NCBI RefSeq assembly: GCF_036867195.1
Contig: NZ_JBAJII010000001.1
Coordinates: 1,426,001 to 1,490,000 of the forward strand
Source of the DNA: Arthrobacter sp. Soc17.1.1.1
GTDB lineage: Bacteria > Actinomycetota > Actinomycetes > Actinomycetales > Micrococcaceae
Length of the DNA: 64,000 bases
Reading direction: 5' to 3'
The notes under the pieces are model-generated. The model did not search any database, was not told the DNA's origin, and saw nothing but the letters and a program-made list of their open reading frames with translations. The stretch's first letter is position 1, and the number at the start of each line of letters is the position of its first letter. Position numbers and translations under genes: made by a program. Positions 9,557 to 58,308 of the stretch are shown one piece after another.

Positions 9557-11137
9557 CTACCGGAAGTTCTTCTGGTGTGCCTTGATCGATGCGACGTACT
9601 GCTTGGTGTCCTCGAACATGCCACGGTTCTGCACCGAGTACTGGCCCTGGTAGTAGGAGGCGATGGCGATGTCGAGCGAGGGACTGGTGCGTACGAGCGA
9701 GCGGATGATCGCCACGCCGGCGGTGGCGTTGTCGTAGGGATCCAGCAGGTTGAGCTTGCGGCCCACCAGGTCGCTCGCCCACTGCCCGGAGGAGGGGATG
9801 ACCTGCATGGTGCCGATCGCGTTCGCCGGGGACACCGCGCGCTGGTTGAAGCCGGACTCCTGGTACGCGAAGGCCAGCGCGAGGCTCGGATCGACGCCCA
9901 TGGAGCGGGCCGTGTCCGCGACGATCTGCTTCATCTCGGCCTGGGACGGAGCCGGCATCGAGTTGAGCAGGGCCTTGTTGGCGTTGGCGTCCGCCACCAC
10001 CTTGTCGGGGTACTGGTAGCCCAGGAAGGTCGAGGGCACGAGGTTGCCGGGAGCCGGGGCGGGGGCCGGAGCGGTACCGGCGCCGGGGAGCGTGAGCTTC
10101 TGCCCGGGGTAGATGACGGAGGTCATGGTCATCTTGTTGGCGGTGAGCAGGTTGCTCAGTGCGACGCCGTTGCGGGAGGCGATGGCGCCGAGGGTGTCGC
10201 CGGCCTTGACCGTGTACGAGCCGGCGGCCGGGGCAGGAGCGGGGGCCGGTGCAGGGGCGGGTGCCTGCGGCGTGGCCTGCGGGGTCACGCTCCCCGCCAG
10301 CTTCAGCGTCTGCCCGGGGTAGATGACCGACGTCATGCCGAGGTTGTTCGCCTTCAGCAGCGCGTCCAGTCCGATGCCGTTGCGCGAGGCGATGGCACCG
10401 AGGGTGTCACCCGACTTCACCGTGTAGCTGCCGCCTGCGGGAGCGGGGGCGGGGGCGGGGGCAGGAGCGGCGGCGGGCTTGCCCGGCGCCGGGGCGGGAG
10501 CGCCGCCGAGGGTGATCTTCTGGCCGGGGTAGATGATCGAGGTCATCGAGAGCTTGTTGGCCGTCAGCAGGTTCGGCAGGCTCACGCCGTGACGGGAGGC
10601 GATGGCTCCGAGGGTGTCACCGGGCTTGACCACATAGGTGGCCGCGGACGGCTGGGCGGCGGGGGCCGGAGCGGCAGGAGCCGGGGTGGCGGCCGGTGCC
10701 GCGCTGCCCTTCAGCTTGATCTTCTGTCCGGGGTAGATGATGGTGCGCGCGTCCAGCTTGTTCAGCTTCAGGACGGCGTCGGTCGCGAGGCCGAAGCGCT
10801 TGGCGACGGCTCCGATGGTGTCGCCGGGCTTGATCGTGTACTCGCTCGGCGTGGTCTCGGTGTGGACCGTGATCTTCTGCGCCGGGATCTGGGTCGCCAC
10901 GAGGGCGGCGGGGACGACTGCCCGGGCGGGGGCCTGCATGGCCGGTCCGGTGATGTGCCGGGCGGCGGGCGCCTGCGGGGCGGGAGCTGCCGACGCCGGA
11001 TTGGCGAGGGCAACGGAAGAGAGAATCACCGCGGGCAGCGCGGCGGTTGTCACGGCGACGTTCAGGCCGCGTCGGCTCGCGCCGGCAGCCTTCCTGCGGG
11101 TGCCGTTCAGCGGTGCGTTCGATCGCTGGGCAGTCAT
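9557..11137 (-). CDS. Secreted LysM protein with a transglycosylase-like domain
   Basis: 526 aa. The N-terminus (basic RRKAAGASRRG, then a hydrophobic stretch ending ANPASA) is a signal peptide. Four LysM peptidoglycan-binding repeats follow, each about 45 residues with the YxVKxGDTLGAIA...IYPGQKLxL pattern, separated by Ala/Pro linkers. The C-terminal 150 residues look like a lytic transglycosylase SLT domain: YQESGFNQRAVSPANAIGTMQVIP contains the catalytic-type Glu-Ser, and SYYQGQYSV follows. It probably cleaves or remodels cell-wall glycan. ATG 11137 has GAGGA upstream. The gene lies beside the PASTA kinase but has its own leader. Confidence 0.87.
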   Translation of the reverse strand: MTAQRSNAPLNGTRRKAAGASRRGLNVAVTTAALPAVILSSVALANPASAAPAPQAPAARHITGPAMQAPARAVVPAALVATQIPAQKITVHTETTPSEYTIKPGDTIGAVAKRFGLATDAVLKLNKLDARTIIYPGQKIKLKGSAAPAATPAPAAPAPAAQPSAATYVVKPGDTLGAIASRHGVSLPNLLTANKLSMTSIIYPGQKITLGGAPAPAPGKPAAAPAPAPAPAPAGGSYTVKSGDTLGAIASRNGIGLDALLKANNLGMTSVIYPGQTLKLAGSVTPQATPQAPAPAPAPAPAPAAGSYTVKAGDTLGAIASRNGVALSNLLTANKMTMTSVIYPGQKLTLPGAGTAPAPAPAPGNLVPSTFLGYQYPDKVVADANANKALLNSMPAPSQAEMKQIVADTARSMGVDPSLALAFAYQESGFNQRAVSPANAIGTMQVIPSSGQWASDLVGRKLNLLDPYDNATAGVAIIRSLVRTSPSLDIAIASYYQGQYSVQNRGMFEDTKQYVASIKAHQKNFR

Positions 11138-11545
11138 GTTTCGTTCCTCGTCTGTTGGCGGCTGAGTCCGCGCGGACGTACGTACCCGAGGTGATGCTTC
11201 CCGGCCGGGTACGTACACGTGCTGATGATGCTGTTGAGTCACGTGTTGATACTGTTACTTGTGTGACTCCTGTGAACTTACACGAAAACGCAGGTAGCAC
11301 AAGAGCTCCCCGAACGGCCTGAAGCGCAGCTTCGGCGTGTCGCGACCGGAGTCCGATCCCTGCGCTCGTCCTGCGTTCCTCCTTGGCTTGTCCTGCGCCG
11401 TTTCTGCGCCGGCCCTGCGCATGCTGCGGCCCCGTCCTGCAGAACTCCTGAGCCTGCGGCGGGCAGCCGTCCTTCGCGGAGCGGCCCGGGACGGCGTCGG
11501 GCCTCCCGGGTGGAGTTGGGTCCAGGACCATGGCACGCTTGGACG
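11138..11545. promoter_or_regulatory. 408-bp intergenic region with LysM-gene leader and two inverted repeats
   Basis: No gene is supported here. On the minus strand a possible promoter TTCACA-N16-CAGTAT lies near 11276-11249. An 11-bp perfect inverted repeat (11178-11188 with 11206-11216, containing GTACGTACCCG) lies in the probable 5' leader. A 7-bp inverted repeat GAGTCAC/GTGACTC overlaps the putative -10 region (about 11237-11270). The outer part drives the plus-strand Rv2175c-like gene. I do not see the conserved core of the cyclic-di-AMP riboswitch that precedes some actinobacterial cell-wall hydrolases. Confidence 0.45.
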
Positions 11546-49115: not shown

Positions 49116-49128
49116 TAGGGTTGGGGGA
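49116..49128 (+). promoter_or_regulatory. -10 hexamer of glnE
   Basis: TAGGGT (49116-49121) ends 6 nt before ATG 49128. The spacer is TGGGGG, so a weak ribosome site cannot be fully excluded. Confidence 0.5.
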
Positions 49129-52100
49129 TGAGCCTCAACCGCAAGCTGATCAGTTACGGCTTCACGGACCTCGAGAAGAGCCGGCGGTTCCTGGACGCGC
49201 CCGAACTGCAGGGGCTGAACGACGACGACCTCTTCGCCGGTCTCGCGGCGGCCGCCGACCCCGGTCTGGCGCTGCAGTCCTTCGTGCGCCTCCTGGCCGG
49301 CAGCCGGAAGGCCGTGCTGGCCGTGTTCTCGGACGAGGGTCGGCGGGCGTCGCTGTTCCGGCTCCTCGGGGCGTCGGAGGCGCTCGGCGAGTTCCTCATG
49401 CGCCGCCCCGAGCACCTCGACGTGGTGCGGCCGGGTCCCGCGACGCCGGCCGTCGTCGCACCGGAGTACCTCAGGTCCGAGCTGCTGCTCTCGGTCGACG
49501 CCGACCCGTCGGAGGACAACCCCGTGGCCGGCGTCACCGGCCCCGACGCCTACCGCAGGCTCCGCGTGGCCTACCGGCGTCACCTGACGGATCTGGCGGT
49601 CCGCGACCTCGGCCACTGCGCGCCGGTGGACTACCTGCCCGTCGTCGCCCGCGAGCTGGCCGACCTCGCCACCGCCGCGCTCGAGGCCTCCCTCGCCGTC
49701 GCCCGCGCCGAGCTGGGGCAGGTGCACGGGCCCGACGTCGTCGCGCGCGTCCGGCTGGCCGTCATCGCCATGGGCAAGTGTGGCGCGCGCGAGCTCAACT
49801 ACATCTCCGACGTCGACGTGGTCTACGTGGTGGAGGGGGAGGACCTCGACGACACGAGCGTCACGAGGATCGGGACGGGCCTGGCCTCCGGCATGGCCCG
49901 CGGTGTGTACTCCACCGGAGCGGAGCCTGCCCTCTGGGAGGTCGACGCGAACCTCCGCCCCGAGGGCAAGGACGGCCAGCTCGTCCGCACGCTGCAGTCC
50001 CACATCTCCTACTACGAGCGCTGGGCGAAGACGTGGGAGTTCCAGGCGCTGCTGAAGGCCCGCGCCGCCGCCGGCGACCCCGGACTCGGCCGCCGGTACG
50101 AGGAGGCCATCGCCCCGTTCGTGTGGGCGTCGTCGCAGCGCGAGGGCTTCGTGGAGGCCGTCCGGGCGATGCGGCGCCGCGTCACCGACAACATCCCGCG
50201 CGAGGAGGAGGCCCGGCAGCTCAAGCTCGGACCGGGCGGACTGCGCGACGTCGAGTTCACCGTCCAGCTGCTGCAGCTCGTGCACGGCCGGCTGGACGAG
50301 TCGCTGCGCATCCGGGACACCGTCACGGCGATCGGCGCGCTCAGCTCCGCAGGGTACATCGGCCGCTCCGACGCCCTCGACCTCGACGACGCGTACCGCT
50401 ACCTGCGGGTCCTCGAGCACCGCATCCAGCTCGTGCAGATGCGCCGCACACACCTGATGCCGGAGGACGAGAGCGCCCTGCGGGCCCTCGCCCGATCGTC
50501 CCAGGGGTGCATGGTCACGGTACGGCCGAGCCCGCAGAGCCTCAACGACACGTGGCAGCGCACCCGGAAGCTCGTCCGGCGGCTCCACGAGTCCATCTTC
50601 TACCGGCCCCTGCTCAACAACGCCGCGACGCTGCGGCCCGAGGACGTCCAGCTCACGGCCGAGGCCGCGCAGGCCCGCCTCGCCGCCCTCGGCTATCTCG
50701 ACCCGCGCGGCGCCATGCGGCACATCGAGGCCCTCACCGGGGGGCTGCGGCGGCGCGCGATGCTGCAGCGGCAGCTCCTGCCCATCCTGCTGGCATGGTT
50801 CGCCGACGGCGTCGATCCGGATGCAGGTCTCCTGGGGTTCCGCCGGCTCAGCGAGTCGCTGGGGGAGAGCCACTGGTACCTGGGGATGCTCCGCGATTCG
50901 AACGCGGCCGCCGAGCGCCTCTGCGCCGTCCTGTCGAGCAGCCGGTTCATCACCGACCTGCTGGAGGTGTCGCCCGAATCGACGCAGTGGCTCGGCTCCG
51001 ACGCGGCACTGGTGCCCGGCACGTTCGACGCGCAGTGGCAGGAGATCCAGTCGAAGATGTCCCGGCACCCCGAGCCGGGGGAGGCCATCCGGCTGATCCG
51101 GCTCATCCGCCGTCGGGAGCTGCTGCGCATCGCCATCGCCGACAGCTCCCACCTGCTGTCCCAGGCCCAGGTGGGCAAGGCCCTCGCCGATGCCGACCGC
51201 GCCGCGATCCTCGGGGCCCTGCACGTCGCCGAGAACCAGGTGCTCGGGCAGGAGGAGCAGCTGACGCACGTCGTCGTCATGGCGATGGGGCGCCAGGGCG
51301 GGCGCGAGATCACCTACGGCTCGGATGCCGACGTCATCTACGTCCACCGCCCGTTCCCGGGCGCGGACGAGGCGGCGGCGCAGAAGCAGGCGGAGGCGAT
51401 CGTGGCACGCCTGGCCGCGCTGCTCACGCAGCCATGCAAACCGCCCGTGCTCGCGGAACGCGTCCTCGAGATCGACGCGGCGCTGCGGCCCGAGGGCAAG
51501 CAGGGGGCGATGGTGCGGTCCATCGACTCCTTCCGGGAGTACTACCGGCGCTGGTCGCTCGTGTGGGAGGCGCAGGCGCTGTTGCGGGCTCGTCCGCTCG
51601 CGGGCGACGACGGGCTGGCCGCCGAGTTCCTCGAGGTGATCGACCCCGTGCGGTACCCGGAGGAGCTCGGCGAGACGGATGTCCGGGAGATCCGCCGCAT
51701 CAAGGCCCGCGTGGAGTCCGAGCGGCTCCCGCGCGGCGCGGACCCGTCCCGGCACCTGAAGCTCGGCCGGGGCGCCCTGAGCGACGTCGAGTGGCTCGTG
51801 CAACTGCTGCAGCTGCAGCATGCCCGGGCGATCCCGGGCCTGCGCGTGCAGTCCACCCTCGCCGCCCTGGACGTCATCGCCGCGGAGGGACTGCTCCCGG
51901 TGGACGACGTCGCCCTGCTCCGCGAGAGCTGGAATCTGGCCACGCGCATCCGGGCGGCGAACGTCATCTGGAGCGGCCGCGGCTCCGACCTCCTGCCGTC
52001 GTCGCGGCGGGACCTCGAGGCGGTGGCACGGTGGTGCGGGTACGGGCCGGACAGCGGCTCGGCCCTCGAGGAGGACTACCTCCGCATGACCCGGCGCAGC

Positions 52101-52136
52101 AGGGGCGTCTTCGAGCGGCACTTCTACGGGTACTAA
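49128..52136 (+). CDS. glnE: Glutamine synthetase adenylyltransferase (bifunctional)
   Basis: 1002 aa enzyme that adenylylates and de-adenylylates glutamine synthetase type I according to nitrogen status. Two nucleotidyltransferase halves are present: the N-terminal with MGKCGARELNYISDVDVVYV (degenerate GSD) and the C-terminal with MGRQGGREITYGSDADVIYV (about residue 730). Each is followed by a helical GlnD-type domain. It sits between glnA2 and, across an inserted element, its likely target glnA. Confidence 0.95.
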   Translation: MSLNRKLISYGFTDLEKSRRFLDAPELQGLNDDDLFAGLAAAADPGLALQSFVRLLAGSRKAVLAVFSDEGRRASLFRLLGASEALGEFLMRRPEHLDVVRPGPATPAVVAPEYLRSELLLSVDADPSEDNPVAGVTGPDAYRRLRVAYRRHLTDLAVRDLGHCAPVDYLPVVARELADLATAALEASLAVARAELGQVHGPDVVARVRLAVIAMGKCGARELNYISDVDVVYVVEGEDLDDTSVTRIGTGLASGMARGVYSTGAEPALWEVDANLRPEGKDGQLVRTLQSHISYYERWAKTWEFQALLKARAAAGDPGLGRRYEEAIAPFVWASSQREGFVEAVRAMRRRVTDNIPREEEARQLKLGPGGLRDVEFTVQLLQLVHGRLDESLRIRDTVTAIGALSSAGYIGRSDALDLDDAYRYLRVLEHRIQLVQMRRTHLMPEDESALRALARSSQGCMVTVRPSPQSLNDTWQRTRKLVRRLHESIFYRPLLNNAATLRPEDVQLTAEAAQARLAALGYLDPRGAMRHIEALTGGLRRRAMLQRQLLPILLAWFADGVDPDAGLLGFRRLSESLGESHWYLGMLRDSNAAAERLCAVLSSSRFITDLLEVSPESTQWLGSDAALVPGTFDAQWQEIQSKMSRHPEPGEAIRLIRLIRRRELLRIAIADSSHLLSQAQVGKALADADRAAILGALHVAENQVLGQEEQLTHVVVMAMGRQGGREITYGSDADVIYVHRPFPGADEAAAQKQAEAIVARLAALLTQPCKPPVLAERVLEIDAALRPEGKQGAMVRSIDSFREYYRRWSLVWEAQALLRARPLAGDDGLAAEFLEVIDPVRYPEELGETDVREIRRIKARVESERLPRGADPSRHLKLGRGALSDVEWLVQLLQLQHARAIPGLRVQSTLAALDVIAAEGLLPVDDVALLRESWNLATRIRAANVIWSGRGSDLLPSSRRDLEAVARWCGYGPDSGSALEEDYLRMTRRSRGVFERHFYGY

Positions 52137-52277
52137 CAAGTCCCCACGCCAACTGTACGTCCGCGGGCCGACCTCCTGCCGCAACACCGGCAGGACACGA
52201 GCGGCACGGGCAGGACACGGGCGACACGGGCCGGACACGAGCGACACAGGCAGGACACTAGCGACACGGGCCGGATA

Positions 52278-52319
52278 CGACGACGGCGGCCGTCCCGGGT
52301 GGGAGGGCCGCCGTCGTCG
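52278..52319. terminator. Hairpin terminator at the glnE/ancestral glnA junction
   Basis: A 14-bp perfect stem (52278-52291 with 52306-52319) lies just before the left copy of the att repeat. Before insertion it would have lain about 20 bp past the glnA stop, serving both convergent genes. Confidence 0.75.
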
Positions 52320-52340: not shown

Positions 52341-52365
52341 CTAGACGCCGTAGTAGAGCTCGAAC
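52341..52365. repeat. attL-like copy: duplicated glnA 3' end
   Basis: 25 bp that match 56884-56908 with one mismatch (position 16). Read on the minus strand it still encodes FELYYGV-stop; the mismatch is synonymous (CTC for CTG). No glnA reading frame leads into it. Confidence 0.85.
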
Positions 52366-52392
52366 ACTCGAGAGATGACGGAGGGGTATTGG

Positions 52393-53622
52393 CTACTCCT
52401 GTTTGCCGTCGCGGTGCCACATCGGGGCAGCTTCCTGAGTGACGATCTCGAACGCGGGTTCAGAGAAATTGCAGTCACGAACAATACAATGCGTGAAATC
52501 CTCGTCAGTAGGCCATCGTTTCAAAGCTGTGCTGATCTGGCATTCGATGAACTTTATCTTCAAGAATCCGCTGTACGGTGGCAGTTTTTTGGGGAACTTG
52601 AGAAACTCACACCCGAGGAACTCGAGATTCACCTTGCTGGAACTGGTGACAATTAGTGATGTTCCTAAGAATGCGCAGTTCTTAAATAGAAGCCGAGTAT
52701 CAATGCTCATATTGAGAAGGTTAATTTCGCCGTCTTCGAACCTACAATTAACAAACGATACCGAGCGAAATCGCGAGTGGGCCAAGTTCAAGAAACCACT
52801 CGACGAGATAGTGCAATCGGTGATGTAGAAGTCATATCCGTCAGCGAAGGACCTGTATAGATTCAGATCTGCATCGAGAAGGAGGCTGTCCAACGTGCGG
52901 CCGTTGAGATTTGCTTCACTAAGATCGATCGTCATTTCGGTCCACCGAGTCTCATCGATGAGCCCGTACGCAAGGCGAGCTGTAGCTACCTGCCAAACGG
53001 CTTGGCGCAAAGAGTGGCTTGAGTCCTCGCCGTCACTGCGCAACGCTACCTCTTCACTCAACATTCGGAAGTATGCAGCGAGCACTTCGACGCAAGTTTG
53101 ACGATCCGTTTCGGATCTCTCGCGGCCCCAGTCATCACTTAAGGTTGCCAAAGCGTAAATACCGGCTAGGCGTACAGCAATTGCGCTTGACCCGAGTTGT
53201 TCGGCAGCTGCGGTGTACCGCGACCGGAGTTCGGCAACTCTAGTGTCTCGGTGACGCAGGAGTTCCAATTGATGCTGTTGGTTGCCCAATTGGAGGGCCT
53301 CTGCGGAGGTCACTTGAGCCGCAGCTGCAGTCCGTTGTGCTTCGGAACTAATGCGTTGAGTAACTTCCATGGTGCGTTGTCTGCGGTAGGAAAGCAGAAG
53401 TGTTACTCCAACGCCTAAAGCGGCCGCCGCCGTGACCGCGTTCCTGATGATGCCAAATTGCTCATCTTGGGACAGTGGCGTCGGCGCTGTCCATGGCGTG
53501 GCGTTTCCTGTGGAATATGCAGCGAAGACGTAGATGAGCAGCCCGATGAGGACGAGGGTGCCAAAGAAGCCGATCACCAACAGCAGCCAAAGTTTGGCGG
53601 GTTCCTTCTCATCAAGCTTCAC
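52393..53622 (-). CDS. Membrane-anchored pentapeptide-repeat-like protein
   Basis: 409 aa. Two N-terminal transmembrane helices (LWLLLVIGFFGTLVLIGLLIYVF and AVTAAAALGVGVTLLLSY) lead to a helical stretch. Next comes the ERSETDRQTCVEVLAAYFRM segment that commonly precedes pentapeptide repeats in actinobacterial proteins. The C-terminal half has A(D/N)LxF-like residues that are irregular: LSEANLNGRTLDSLLLDADLN, then FVNCRFEDGEINLLN. Function unknown; membrane-associated sensing or defence is only a guess. GTG 53622 lies 7 nt after TAGAGT (minus strand), a possible leaderless start. Confidence 0.72.
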   Translation of the reverse strand: MKLDEKEPAKLWLLLVIGFFGTLVLIGLLIYVFAAYSTGNATPWTAPTPLSQDEQFGIIRNAVTAAAALGVGVTLLLSYRRQRTMEVTQRISSEAQRTAAAAQVTSAEALQLGNQQHQLELLRHRDTRVAELRSRYTAAAEQLGSSAIAVRLAGIYALATLSDDWGRERSETDRQTCVEVLAAYFRMLSEEVALRSDGEDSSHSLRQAVWQVATARLAYGLIDETRWTEMTIDLSEANLNGRTLDSLLLDADLNLYRSFADGYDFYITDCTISSSGFLNLAHSRFRSVSFVNCRFEDGEINLLNMSIDTRLLFKNCAFLGTSLIVTSSSKVNLEFLGCEFLKFPKKLPPYSGFLKIKFIECQISTALKRWPTDEDFTHCIVRDCNFSEPAFEIVTQEAAPMWHRDGKQE

Positions 53623-53893
53623 AGGGGTAACTCTATCGAGGCACTGGAAGCACCAAAGACGCCACCTGTGGGGGGCGGAGGCCTTCTTGAACTAGATACA
53701 CTCATGCGCTGTGCAACCAGCACACCCCATGATGGGCGTCGAATAGCGCTTTTCACGCAAAGTCGCCGGAATCGTTGAACATTCTGCTCAAGCGAGTCCG
53801 TCTAGAGTGCTTCTTCCGTCGGTTTCGCTCCCGGTCTACGGGGTAGGCCCAAAGCTCGGCGTCTTCTGGTGGTGCGTTGGTTCGGAGGTTTCA
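53623..53893. other. Non-coding gap inside the element
   Basis: No convincing gene. It holds the -10 of the pentapeptide gene on the minus strand and a TAGAGT hexamer near 53802 that could have driven the integrase. Short open frames here lack ribosome sites and coding character. Confidence 0.4.
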
Positions 53894-54985
53894 TTGGCAT
53901 TCCCAGCAGCCGTCTGGATCAAGAAGAGGGCTGATGGGCGCTGGCGGGTCCGGTACCGAGATGCTGCTGGTGAAGAACACGCGCGGCACTTTCCTCGGAA
54001 AGTAGACGGGCAGCGGTGGCTCGATGAGGTTACGACGTCTGTCGTGACAGGCATGTACGTTGACCCGAAGACCGCCAAGACGACGGTGGCAACTGGTGCG
54101 TGACTTGGCTGCGCGGGTACGAGAACAAGCGTCCATCGACGGTGAAGCAGGCGCGGTCTCACCTCAAGCACATCACCGCGGCGTTCGGCAGCAAGGCCTT
54201 CGGCGATCTGCGCCCCTCAGAGATGCGCGCTTGAATAGCGAGACTGAAGGCCGAGTGGTATGCGGATTCGACGGTCTACGCGGCACATGCACGGCTGTCA
54301 CACATCTTCGCGGACGCCGTCCACGACGGGTTGGTGCCGAAGATCCAGTTAGCCGGCGCACGTATCCTAGCGCTGGCAAGCAGCGGGCCTACGTGGCAAC
54401 CACCGATCAGGTGTGGGCACTCCACGACGCAATGCCGGAAAGCTTGCGGCCAGCGATTCTCTTGGCGGCTTTCGCGGGCCTACGCGTGGCAGAGGTAGCA
54501 GCGCTGCGCGTGGTTGTCGTCGACTTCATGCGCGGCATCATCACGCCTCGGATTTAATACCAGGCGGAACCGCTGAAGACAGAGATGTCGCGAACGCCAA
54601 TTTCGATCCCGCGAGAACCCCCTTCAGCTCAATCACGATCCGACCAAGTGGTAGTGGACACTATCGTCACGGGGGGGTGGGGACGCTCCGTCGCTCCGTA
54701 CACGATTGAAACGAATCTCGGGCGGGTCGCGTCGAGATTGAAGGGCTGCCCGAGGGGTTCCGGTTTTACGACCTGCGCCACTACTTCGCATCGCTGCTCA
54801 TCGCCTCCGGCCTCGACGTGAAGGTGGTTCAGACACGGCTCCGTCACTCGTCGGCCAAGACAACTTTAAACACATACAGGCACATCTGGCCTGACAAGGA
54901 CGATTCGTCGAGACACGCCGTCGCAAGCGCCTTAAGAGGCGACTTGAAAGCGTTCGAGCAGGACAGCGCTGTCAGTTCAAGTGCA
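53894..54985 (+). pseudogene. Tyrosine-family site-specific integrase, broken
   Basis: TTG 53894 with GGAGG upstream begins the usual AP2-like DNA-binding start (WIKKRADGRWRVRYRDAAGEEHARHF...VDGQRWLDEVTTSVVTGMYVDP). After TTVA the frame shifts; the core-binding domain continues as YENKRPSTVKQARSHLKHIT, ending at an internal TGA where relatives have Trp (EMRA-stop-IARLK). A further shift opens YVATTDQVWALHDAMPESLRP...AGLRVAEVAALRV, ending in TAA. The catalytic C-terminus FRFYDLRHYFASLLIASGLDV and RHSSAKTTLNTYRHIWPD, with the nucleophile Tyr, survives in another segment. At least two frameshifts and two stops make it non-functional. That open frame runs on to 55234 over the DUF3037 gene. Confidence 0.85.
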
Positions 54986-55879
54986 TCAAGCGACGAGGCT
55001 CCGTGCCTCAAGCGCGAACCGGTGAATGTCCGCGGACGTGAAGTCCTGCACGCCAAGCTCGCGCCAAGACTCGCGTGCGATGTCAAGCTGCATCTTTTGA
55101 TCGTTTGTCTGAGGTTCGTCGTGAACTACTCGGATGGGAACATTTTGATCAATACGGAGGAAGCGCCCCGATTTGCCCATCTCAAGCTGACCCCCTCTTC
55201 CTCTCAGCCGATTAACGACATGGCTCCAAGCTGACACTTCTTGATTGACGTTTTCTAAGTCCTTGCGGGTGAAGGAAACGACCTGAGTCATTTGACGCAC
55301 GCGATCTTCACCTAGCGCTAAATCAAAGCGCTTCACTTGCATGCCAATCTGAATTCGCGGGTTCCGCTGCACAATGTCACGATCGAGTTCAGGGATCTGA
55401 GCAAACTCATCACCGATTCGCTTAAGAAGTCGTGTCCGTGCCTGTGTTCGCGTCGTCGTCGGGTTCTCACGAACGAGCAATCGATAAAGCCGGTCAGCAG
55501 CGGACGCGGCATCCAAAGTATGTACTGGTCGAGCCTCCGAGATCTGCACGCTGTTGTTGAGGCGGGCCGCCATATGGGCAACAATCCCTGAATTCATGGA
55601 CATCTCAGTGAAGGACCTAGATCTACTGCGTTCTAGCAAGGGCGAGATTCGATTCAGGTCGCCCTCACCATTGGCATGGCTAACGGCAAGCCGCAGCTCT
55701 TCCAACCAGTGCCGTGCTTGACGTGCATCTCCGCCGAGCCGGCTCGCCCTGGTAAATGAGTCGACGGTGCGAAGGGCCCAGTCTTTTCCGTCCATCCCGA
55801 CGAGTACGCCTATGTTCACAAACTCACCGCGAACAGCGTTGGGGACATAGCGGATAAGCCAGTACTGGTAGCCGGTCAC
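54986..55879 (-). CDS. DUF3037 protein
   Basis: 297 aa. The N-terminal YQYWLIRYVPNAVRGEFVNIGVLVG is the DUF3037 signature; the rest is helical and unassigned. Biochemical role unknown. It starts at GTG 55879 with AAGGGGAC upstream, 24 bp after the HipA-like gene, so the two are probably one transcript. DUF3037 genes are commonly found next to HipA-like kinases, which supports a functional pair. Confidence 0.78.
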   Translation of the reverse strand: MTGYQYWLIRYVPNAVRGEFVNIGVLVGMDGKDWALRTVDSFTRASRLGGDARQARHWLEELRLAVSHANGEGDLNRISPLLERSRSRSFTEMSMNSGIVAHMAARLNNSVQISEARPVHTLDAASAADRLYRLLVRENPTTTRTQARTRLLKRIGDEFAQIPELDRDIVQRNPRIQIGMQVKRFDLALGEDRVRQMTQVVSFTRKDLENVNQEVSAWSHVVNRLRGRGGQLEMGKSGRFLRIDQNVPIRVVHDEPQTNDQKMQLDIARESWRELGVQDFTSADIHRFALEARSLVA

Positions 55880-55903
55880 TATCTTGTCCCCTTCCGTGCG
55901 TCG

Positions 55904-56674
55904 CTAAACATTGAACGCATGTCTCATTAGCCTGTCGAAGAGAGCAGGCCGCCGAGCATCGAGCCATTCCACGATGTGGCCTAAGTCTTCCTCCGAGACA
56001 CCCCATTCTATGGGTACGCTGGCCACCGCCGCGGCGATGTCGTCTACTCGAAGATCGCGGATTCGACTCGCGACCTCGACGAAGGCGGGAGCTGACATGC
56101 CGCGTACTGGTCCAGTCCACGAGTTGGCAAGACCTACCTGGCGCTGCAGATCGCTTGGTGTCCACAGCCCGCCGCCTCCTAGCCAGTAGCCGTGGTCAAA
56201 GGACCAGACCTCGTGGTCTGCTCCAAGGTCGTAGAGCCACTGCTCGTCTTCGCCTGCGCACCACTCCCAGAGCGCAATGAAGCGGGGTTGTCGCTCGGCG
56301 TTGTGGTCACGTTTGACGTACTCGAGGACGTCGCGCTCAAGGGGGTGGGATTCCAGGTGAAGACTCGCGTGAGCAACTCCAGGCCGTACCCGTAGGCCTT
56401 CACCGTAGGGCCAGCCGTCCATGGTCTGCGGTATATCCACTAGAGTCACGGGGCGCACGGGCGCCCCGATCAGGAAGCCGATGTGTGCGACAACCTGCTC
56501 CGCGATAAGCGAGGTGAGTCCATGAGGGTTGCCCAGCGGCTTGACCCAATAGGTGTTGTCATCCTCGGCCAAAGCTAGGAACGGCCGGCTTCCTGCATCA
56601 GAAGTCTGAATTGGCGCGACCAAAGTTGTAGTTGCGCGGCCGCGAGTATGCGAACCGAGTAACTGCGCGCTCAA
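55904..56674 (-). CDS. HipA-like kinase-fold protein
   Basis: 256 aa. The segment TYWVKPLGNPHGLTSLIAEQVVAHIGFLIGAPV matches the nucleotide-binding lobe of stand-alone HipA-family kinases (Lys in VKP). FIALWEWCAGEDEQWLYDLGADHEVWSFDHGYWLGG matches their catalytic region, with an Asp-His-Gly metal site. The usual N-x-D-R...N catalytic loop is altered (GEDEQ...YDLG), so activity is uncertain. TTG 56674 with GGGGG upstream is the likely start. No HipB antitoxin is adjacent; the DUF3037 gene follows. Confidence 0.7.
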   Translation of the reverse strand: MSAQLLGSHTRGRATTTLVAPIQTSDAGSRPFLALAEDDNTYWVKPLGNPHGLTSLIAEQVVAHIGFLIGAPVRPVTLVDIPQTMDGWPYGEGLRVRPGVAHASLHLESHPLERDVLEYVKRDHNAERQPRFIALWEWCAGEDEQWLYDLGADHEVWSFDHGYWLGGGGLWTPSDLQRQVGLANSWTGPVRGMSAPAFVEVASRIRDLRVDDIAAAVASVPIEWGVSEEDLGHIVEWLDARRPALFDRLMRHAFNV

Positions 56675-56782
56675 CTTACCCCCATGCGATTGTGCGGATT
56701 CAGTACGTGCCTCCGCGAGACCTGAAGACGGCTGTCTGTTGAAGAAGTGTAGCGGTTCACAAGCCCCCTAACTGATGGAACT

Positions 56783-56818
56783 GAGAAGGCCCCTTCCACA
56801 GCCGGAAGGGGCCTTCTC
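56783..56818. terminator. Element-borne hairpin downstream of glnA
   Basis: A 15-bp perfect stem (56783-56797 with 56804-56818) and a 6-nt loop lie inside the element, about 66 bp past the glnA stop. It probably replaces the original terminator at 52278-52319. Confidence 0.75.
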
Positions 56819-56883
56819 GCTCAGTAAACAAGTGATCCCGCGGACTGTCTGCGGACTAAGCCCGCTATTAGCCCGTGATCTAG

Positions 56884-56908
56884 CTAGACGCCGTAGTACA
56901 GCTCGAAC
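56884..56908. repeat. attR-like copy: functional glnA 3' end
   Basis: 25 bp covering the last seven codons and stop of glnA, repeated at 52341-52365. Integration left an intact glnA. Confidence 0.85.
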
Positions 56909-58308
56909 TCGTACGGGTTCGGGCGCAGCGAGAGCGGCTTGATCTCCATCTCGCGCTTGTACTCGATCCACGTGTCGATCAGGTCCTGGGTGAACACGTC
57001 ACCGGCCTGCAGGAACTCGTTGTCCGCCTCGAGGGCCTGGAGCGCCTCCTCGAGGGAGCCCGGAGCCTTCTGGATGTCCTTGGCCTCCTCGGCGGGCAGC
57101 TCGTAGAGGTCCTTGTCGATGGGCTCGGCGGGCTCGATGCGGTTGCGGATGCCGTCGAGGCCCGCCATGAGCTGCGCGGCGAACGCGAGGTACGGGTTCG
57201 ACGACGGGTCCGGTGCGCGGAACTCGATGCGCTTGGCCTTCGGGTTCGAGCCCGTGATGGGGATGCGGATGCCGGCGGAGCGGTTGCCCTGCGAGTACAC
57301 CATGTTGACCGGCGCCTCGAAGCCCTTGACCAGGCGGCGGTAGGAGTTCACGGTCGGGTTGGTGAAGGCGAGGACCGCCGAGGCGTGCTTGAGCAGGCCG
57401 CCGATGTACCAGCGGGCGGTGTCCGACAGTCCCGCGTAGCCGCGCTCGTCGTAGAACAGCGGCTGACCGCCGGCCCACAGCGACTGGTGGCAGTGCATGC
57501 CGGACCCGTTCTCACCGAACACGGGCTTCGGCATGAAGGTGGCCGTCTTGCCCCAGGCGTCGGAGACGTTCTTCACGATGTACTTGAACTTCTGCAGGTC
57601 GTCCGCGGCGTGCGTCATCGTCGTGAACTTGTAGTTGATCTCGGCCTGGCCGGCGCCGCCGACCTCGTGGTGCGACCGCTCGACCTCGAGGCCGGCCTTG
57701 TCCAGCTCCACGCAGATGGCGTCGCGGAGGTCGGCCTGCTTGTCCACGGGGGAGACCGGGAAGTAGCCGCCCTTGAAGGGCGTCTTGTTGCCCAGGTTGC
57801 CGCCCACTTCCTCGCGGCCACTGTTCCAGGGGGCCTCGATGGAGTCGACCTTGTAGAAGCTGCCCTGCGGGGAGGACTCGTACTGCACGTTGTCGAAGAT
57901 GAAGAACTCGGCCTCGGGCGCGAAGAACGCGGTGTCGGCGATGCCGGTCGAGGACAGGTAGGCCTCGGCCCGTTCGGCGACGCTGCGGGGGTCGCGGTGG
58001 TAGGGGTCGCCCGTGCGCGGGTTGACGATCGAGAAGTTCAGCGCGAGGGTCTTCTCGGTACGGAACGGGTCGATGAACGCCGTCGTCACGTCCGGGATGA
58101 GCTGCATGTCGGATTCCGCGATGCCCTGGAAGCCTCGGATCGAGGACCCGTCGAAGAGCTGGCCGTGCACGAAGAAGTCCGCGTCGACCGACTTCGCAGG
58201 GACGTTGAAGTGCTGCTGCACCCCCGGAAGATCGGTGAACCGGACATCGACGAACCGGATGTCTTCGTCGGCAATGAATGTGAGGACCTCGTCCGCATTC
58301 TTGAACAT
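56884..58308 (-). CDS. glnA: Glutamine synthetase, type I (adenylylatable)
   Basis: Main ammonium-assimilating enzyme of 474 aa. Markers: [70 protein letters not shown], and the adenylylation loop with Tyr in [11 protein letters not shown]. GlnE at 49128 is the expected modifying enzyme. ATG 58308 has GGAG about 11 nt upstream. Its last codons form the attachment site of the neighbouring element. A GlnR-type operator lies at 58438-58475. Confidence 0.96.

Follow-up and report, generated by a model that had tools for sequence, protein, structure and literature searches.

A probable decayed integrative element at the 3′ end of glnA in Arthrobacter and its relatives among actinobacteria

A 4.5-kb segment of lower GC content lies between glnA, which encodes glutamine synthetase, and a convergent neighbor that we take to be glnE in Arthrobacter sp. 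Soc17.1.1.1 (positions 52341 to 56908 of the 64-kb stretch of DNA analyzed here, hereafter the window). We conclude with high confidence that this segment is a decayed integrative element seated at the end of glnA and that it belongs to a wide group of actinobacterial integrases. As an earlier note made from the DNA sequence had described, each edge of the segment is a copy of the last 25 bp of glnA. The two copies are identical at 24 of 25 positions, and the one base that differs is synonymous, so that both encode the same last residues of glutamine synthetase on the minus strand. With up to 3 mismatches allowed, the repeat occurs exactly twice in the window and never in 100 dinucleotide-preserving shuffles; direct repeats at both ends, one of them the end of the target gene, are characteristic of elements integrated by tyrosine integrases. 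GC content per 500 bases is ~48 to 63% within the segment, 70 to 77% across glnE, and 62 to 69% across glnA, in line with the lower GC content named in the earlier note, and the segment matches its own 4.23-Mb assembly once. Insertion into a tRNA gene was rejected, since no tRNA gene was found in the window.

The segment carries a tyrosine integrase gene, rightly described before as broken: it aligns to the open integrase of a genus relative (G027) only piecewise, in three frames and with in-frame stops. The G027 gene is open over 375 codons, its DNA is 75% identical over 1,014 nt to the window gene, and the open homologue is a member of the Phage_integrase family (PF00589). It belongs to a complete-looking 38.4-kb prophage in the same glnA site, flanked by copies of the repeat that are identical at 25 of 25 positions.

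Intact integrases beside glnA, which the earlier note expected in other strains, extend well beyond the genus. An alignment of 29 relatives led to 213 stretches in named genomes, the best 80 of which were kept as loci. The glnA 3′ end lies downstream of the integrase and convergent with it in 71 of these 80 loci, within 605 bp in 64 and at 1.2 to 8.1 kb in 7 (all within 10 kb). Two of the other nine (L083 and L106) were placed at glnA through a pattern search and coordinates. In L132 the end of a cytochrome c assembly gene, and not that of glnA, is repeated at 23 of 25 positions (1696 to 1720 and 11115 to 11139), a switch of target by a member of the integrase group. L128 adjoins a membrane transporter gene and L108 an enoyl-CoA hydratase gene, both with no clear repeat, and L094, L096, L125, and L130 make up the rest of the nine. 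A separate draw of 248 genomes of the order gave 10 integrases at an E value of 1e-70 or better, 9 of which adjoin glnA; the tenth (L190) has no adjoining glnA in the available DNA. In a tree of 94 integrases, midpoint-rooted for drawing only, one group with support of 99/99 comprises 81 rows, namely, all 73 glnA rows, 5 others, 2 unplaced, and 1 viral contig. The stricter proposition that glnA users form a single exclusive clade was rejected, with 6 label changes compared to a shuffled mean of 17.6. Among the loci, three from Nocardia australiensis (L125, L126, and L129) have identical integrase rows, and in L126 the likeness of the two attachment-site copies runs on for another 20 bases downstream; this suggests that one element is present in tandem.

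Comparison of the flanks with relatives identifies the native end of glnA. Past the left copy, 75 bases align with the sequence that follows glnA in the ten nearest relatives (61 of 68 in L005, at a score of 41, where 200 shuffles reached at most 18), and the bases beyond the right copy score −5 to 1 against the post-glnA bases of the nearest relatives. Among six more distant relatives, the left flank is clearly above shuffles in two and barely so in one, and it does not exceed them in three. The left flank is thus native downstream sequence, and the left copy is the displaced native glnA end. The earlier note had taken the right copy for the true end of glnA; it is indeed the present end of the gene, but the native downstream DNA borders the other copy. 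Considered as a crossover marker, the synonymous difference falls at a codon for which relatives use either form.

Empty sites occur in the genus. Among 38 sampled genomes, 37 have glnA, 2 of which are cut by contig ends and yield no gap length. The gap between glnA and glnE spans 71 to 135 bp in 16 genomes, 209 to 393 bp in 6, 651 to 1,049 bp in 3, and at least 2.4 kb in 10, including the window. The check proposed earlier, a search for strains that lack the segment, therefore found 22 of 37 genomes with gaps of 393 bp or less, at lengths of at least 71 bp rather than the 20 to 60 bp that had been predicted. Of these 22, 11 were searched for a second copy of the glnA end, and none has one (best matches of 13 to 15 of 25, which equals background), such that the empty site with a single copy exists in relatives. 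The same search in every one of the 13 genomes whose gaps exceed 600 bp found a second copy in the window (24/25), in G027 (25/25 at 38.4 kb), and in G008 (21/25 at 3.7 kb); in G009, an integrase piece of 65 residues, 77% identical, directly follows glnA. Together with the open integrases of relatives at glnA, the empty sites support the proposal that an integrative element uses the glnA 3′ end.

The attachment site was compared across 30 paired elements (28 loci, the window, and G027). The stretch common to both ends is at most ~25 bp, and 14 of the 30 pairs are identical; differences within pairs cluster at position 3 and close to the stop codon, which itself differs in 10 of 30 pairs, with TAG in 19 of 30 glnA-side copies compared to 10 of 30 far copies, and the encoded residues differ in 7 pairs, the window pair not among them. 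These differences fit an element that supplies the last codons of glnA. The usual site consists of the 25-bp core and paired GTCCGC arm repeats 11 bp apart. On the glnA side, such a pair follows the stop codon in 24 of 30 elements (at +27/+38 in 15 of the 24), and the first 75 bases of the right arms hold 53 GTCCGC sites, compared to a shuffled mean of 2.1 and maximum of 8. On the far side, the pair lies ~110 to 124 bp before the core in 22 of 30 elements (55 sites; shuffled mean 1.5, maximum 7). The 75 bases next to the far core, with 1 site against a shuffled mean of 1.3, show no enrichment; the left pair lies further out. In L095, L114, L121, and L124, which have no left GTCCGC pair, another motif seems by eye to be repeated on both arms. 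The exact arm pattern occurs in 5 of 295 family genomes and 5 of 394 class genomes; since arm variants are missed, these are lower bounds, and the pattern was dropped as a measure of prevalence.

Comparison across genomes shows an integrase group that lies convergent to the end of glnA, glnA-end copies flanking many of its elements, empty single-copy sites in relatives, and paired arm repeats on both sides of the core; these suggest that glnA elements integrate and excise by site-specific recombination. The integrase would bind the arm repeats and the core and join the element's attachment site (attP) to that of the chromosome (attB). glnA would then be closed by the copy next to the element's arm, in many cases with a stop codon brought by the element, and the native glnA end would be pushed, together with its terminator, to the far side of the element. 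The window element would subsequently have decayed, its integrase broken at several places and its far arm pair lost; such a remnant should not excise on its own. In eight loci (L055, L056, L058, L062, L081; L069, L075, L107), the glnA stop codon also ends the integrase frame, or that frame continues beyond it for 59 bases into glnA, and the last codons of the integrase may therefore change upon integration.

Several observations weigh against this interpretation. Five of the 80 members of the group adjoin no glnA in the DNA examined, and three of these five adjoin other genes. A second copy is present in only 3 of the 13 genus genomes with gaps above 600 bp (the other ten reach 15 to 16 of 25), so that other DNA also enters the glnA-glnE gap. 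The window itself keeps the glnA-side arm pair and lacks a far pair in the 250 bp of element next to the left core, its integrase is dead, and no excision, circular form, or transfer was observed.

Two origins deserve consideration for the element that decayed in the window. One, to which we give even odds, is that a small element of the 5- to 16-kb kind, satellite-like or cargo-bearing, left this remnant. Sizes drawn from paired copies in 56 elements (28, 25 in which the locus's own glnA end is one of each pair, 2, and G027) range from ~3 to 46 kb, with 29 below 11 kb, 17 at 11 to 19 kb, 6 at 23 to 32 kb, and 4 at 38 to 46 kb, such that 46 of 56 are below 20 kb. This count is biased toward small elements, as loci extend just 10 kb upstream, and single pairs may be due to chance, since a reversed control pattern matched once in 6 of 40 genomes of the second sizing set. 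The capsid family PF05065, sought in 50 genomes of the sized set, matched in 21 at an E value of 0.001 or better, and 10 of these matches lie inside the glnA element by coordinates: nine in elements of ~8 to 10 kb (L068, L069, L075, L078, L086, L088, L114, L116, and L133) and one in the 38-kb L071. Most sized elements are without this capsid. Direct protein scans found capsid proteins in L088, L078, and L114, small terminases in L088, L117, L063, and L078, a scaffold protein and an excisionase in L088, replication genes in L088 and L117, and a tape measure protein in L087, while 6 of 10 proteins in one chosen set had no phage family match. Some 8- to 10-kb elements with capsid or small-terminase proteins thus appear satellite-like, and any dependence of theirs on a helper phage is putative. 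Set against such an origin, no capsid, terminase, excisionase, or replication gene was recognized in the window element.

Somewhat doubtful, though worth serious consideration, is an origin as a full prophage from which the structural genes were deleted. Judged by integrase and site, no complete relative in the genus is nearer than the G027 prophage, ten proteins of which were scanned, yielding matches to a terminase large subunit, portal, head protease, major head protein, head-tail adaptor, tape measure, endolysin, DnaB-like helicase, and integrase, and to one family of unknown function. Both elements carry cargo between integrase and glnA: in G027 this is a Schlafen/AlbA_2 protein (L040, 894 to 2642), in the same place as the DUF3037-HipA_2 pair of the window. 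However, the two have in common only the DNA of integrase, right arm, and core, and no phage structural gene is left in the window. That the two copies arose by duplication or illegitimate recombination with no integrase involved, which the broken integrase and absent left arm pair might suggest, is very improbable, since elements of many genera repeat this 25-bp boundary together with the position of the integrase and the spacing of the arms.

Traces of former occupants may persist in other genomes. GTCCGC follows glnA at +27 in G003, G006, and G026 and at +37 in G023, with a decayed partner repeat, and the 20 genomes whose gaps are 250 bp or shorter have no GTCCGC within 130 bases after glnA. 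The arms of these four genomes score 12 to 19 against the right arm of the window and −2 to 3 against its native flank, and are probably scars of lost elements. Seven genus relatives (L032 to L036, L038, and L039) hold 2.4 to 8.8 kb of other DNA in the glnA-glnE gap, with genes that look by eye like acyltransferases and with no second copy of the glnA end, and they were not counted as further copies of the element for want of that copy. Two such genomes, G003 and G006, keep the degenerate arm repeats. We lean slightly toward a broader view in which, throughout Actinomycetota, one integrase group with a common arm code makes the glnA end a standing docking niche, where full prophages and small satellite-like elements compete for a single attB, turn over repeatedly, and leave fossil arms and cargo, some of it possibly defensive, between glnA and glnE.

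The features of the window are given in Table 1. The three cargo frames are open, in contrast to the broken integrase. The DUF3037 protein matches the PADLOC candidate at an E value of 4e-12, and neither the HipA_2 protein nor the membrane protein has a PADLOC match up to an E value of 0.1. Pentapeptide-type matches of the membrane protein are weak; its best homologue is 45% identical over 93%, at similar lengths, and C termini vary among its homologues. With this cargo, the element has no virion genes that would make it a temperate prophage and no capsid or packaging genes that would make it a satellite like the phage-inducible chromosomal islands (PICIs); nor did a Pfam scan of the three cargo proteins, with smaller open frames outside its scope, find the conjugal transfer or replication genes of an actinomycete integrative and conjugative element (AICE). 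A terminator scan of the region called neither of the two inverted repeats and no more terminators than in shuffles. Head-to-tail 20-bp repeats occupy positions 52181 to 52280, between the glnE stop codon and the displaced glnA terminator.

Table 1. Features at the glnA end in the window
Feature	Position	Strand	Basis
glnE-like gene, 1,002 amino acids, native neighbor convergent with glnA, served as marker	49128-52136	+	
Native inverted repeat, probably the terminator of glnA before insertion; found behind glnA in empty relatives too	52278-52319	no strand	
Left 25-bp core copy, displaced native glnA end (attL)	52341-52365	-	repeat search, flank comparison
Predicted membrane protein with pentapeptide-like repeats, 409 amino acids, cargo; ends 27 bp from left core	52393-53622	-	
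Broken tyrosine integrase, convergent with glnA	53918-54934	+	pieces in three frames, in-frame stops
DUF3037 protein, 297 amino acids, cargo	54986-55879	-	matches PADLOC candidate PDC-M66B
HipA_2 protein, 256 amino acids, cargo	55904-56674	-	full length compared to 80% identical homologue of 256 amino acids
Inverted repeat of 15 bp, perfect, within the element past glnA; may replace the terminator, lacks a T-run	56783-56818	no strand	
Second arm-type repeat AGTCCGC; GTCCGC at +38 after glnA stop	56840-56846	-	
First arm-type repeat AGTCCGC; GTCCGC at +27 after glnA stop	56851-56857	-	
Right 25-bp core copy, at present the 3′ end of glnA, with the element's arm after it (attR)	56884-56908	-	repeat search, flank comparison
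glnA, glutamine synthetase, 474 amino acids, target gene	56884-58308	-	open frame; homologues in 37 of 38 genus genomes

These findings point to the end of a protein gene, a core nitrogen gene of many actinobacteria, as an attachment site. The elements offer natural candidates for integrase and attP pairs as possible integration tools, the arm repeats after glnA are a mark by which past occupants may be recognized, and prophages and satellite-like elements share one site, so that competition between them can be tested.

Among temperate phages and islands are those that insert at the 3′ ends of genes through tyrosine integrases of the lambda type, and the glnA elements resemble these in the tyrosine integrase, the core repeat that restores the gene end, the paired arm repeats on both sides, and the prophage of G027. 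They differ in the target, the glnA 3′ end, and in integrase sequence: all records matching the G027 integrase in phage (1,279) and plasmid (363) collections are less than 60% identical to it. As the DNA of the segment had no match in the phage collection either, a likeness to isolated phages was rejected. Candidate PICIs of Mycobacterium (PMC10654092) are likewise small and carry an integrase and a major capsid gene, to which some add genes for replication, terminase, or scaffold, as do several glnA elements; however, in the passages available, their tyrosine-integrase examples sit at tRNA genes, the words glnA and glutamine are absent from the main text of that paper, and the window element has no capsid. 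The AICEs (PMC3218068) share actinobacterial hosts, an integrase, and gene 3′ ends, but as far as the excerpts describe them they lie mostly in tRNA genes, and no transfer gene was recognized in the window element. The earlier note did not recall glnA as a described site, which held for actinobacteria, as none of the matches listed in the open-access literature, in the parts available, reports an actinobacterial glnA attachment site, with island databases of the TIGER/Islander type (PMC12424338), which may hold such sites, outside that scope. It did not hold for bacteria at large: the passages available report prophages that sit beside glnA or downstream of it in Macrococcus (PMC12016501) and Staphylococcus aureus (PMC9570271), and mention glnA in other contexts (PMC10872708, PMC4036114). 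As far as the passages describe them, these prophages resemble the elements described here in their site at glnA and differ in having Bacillota hosts. Altogether, the mechanism and anatomy of the glnA elements are of a known kind, and it is the target gene and its breadth among actinobacteria that appear to be new.

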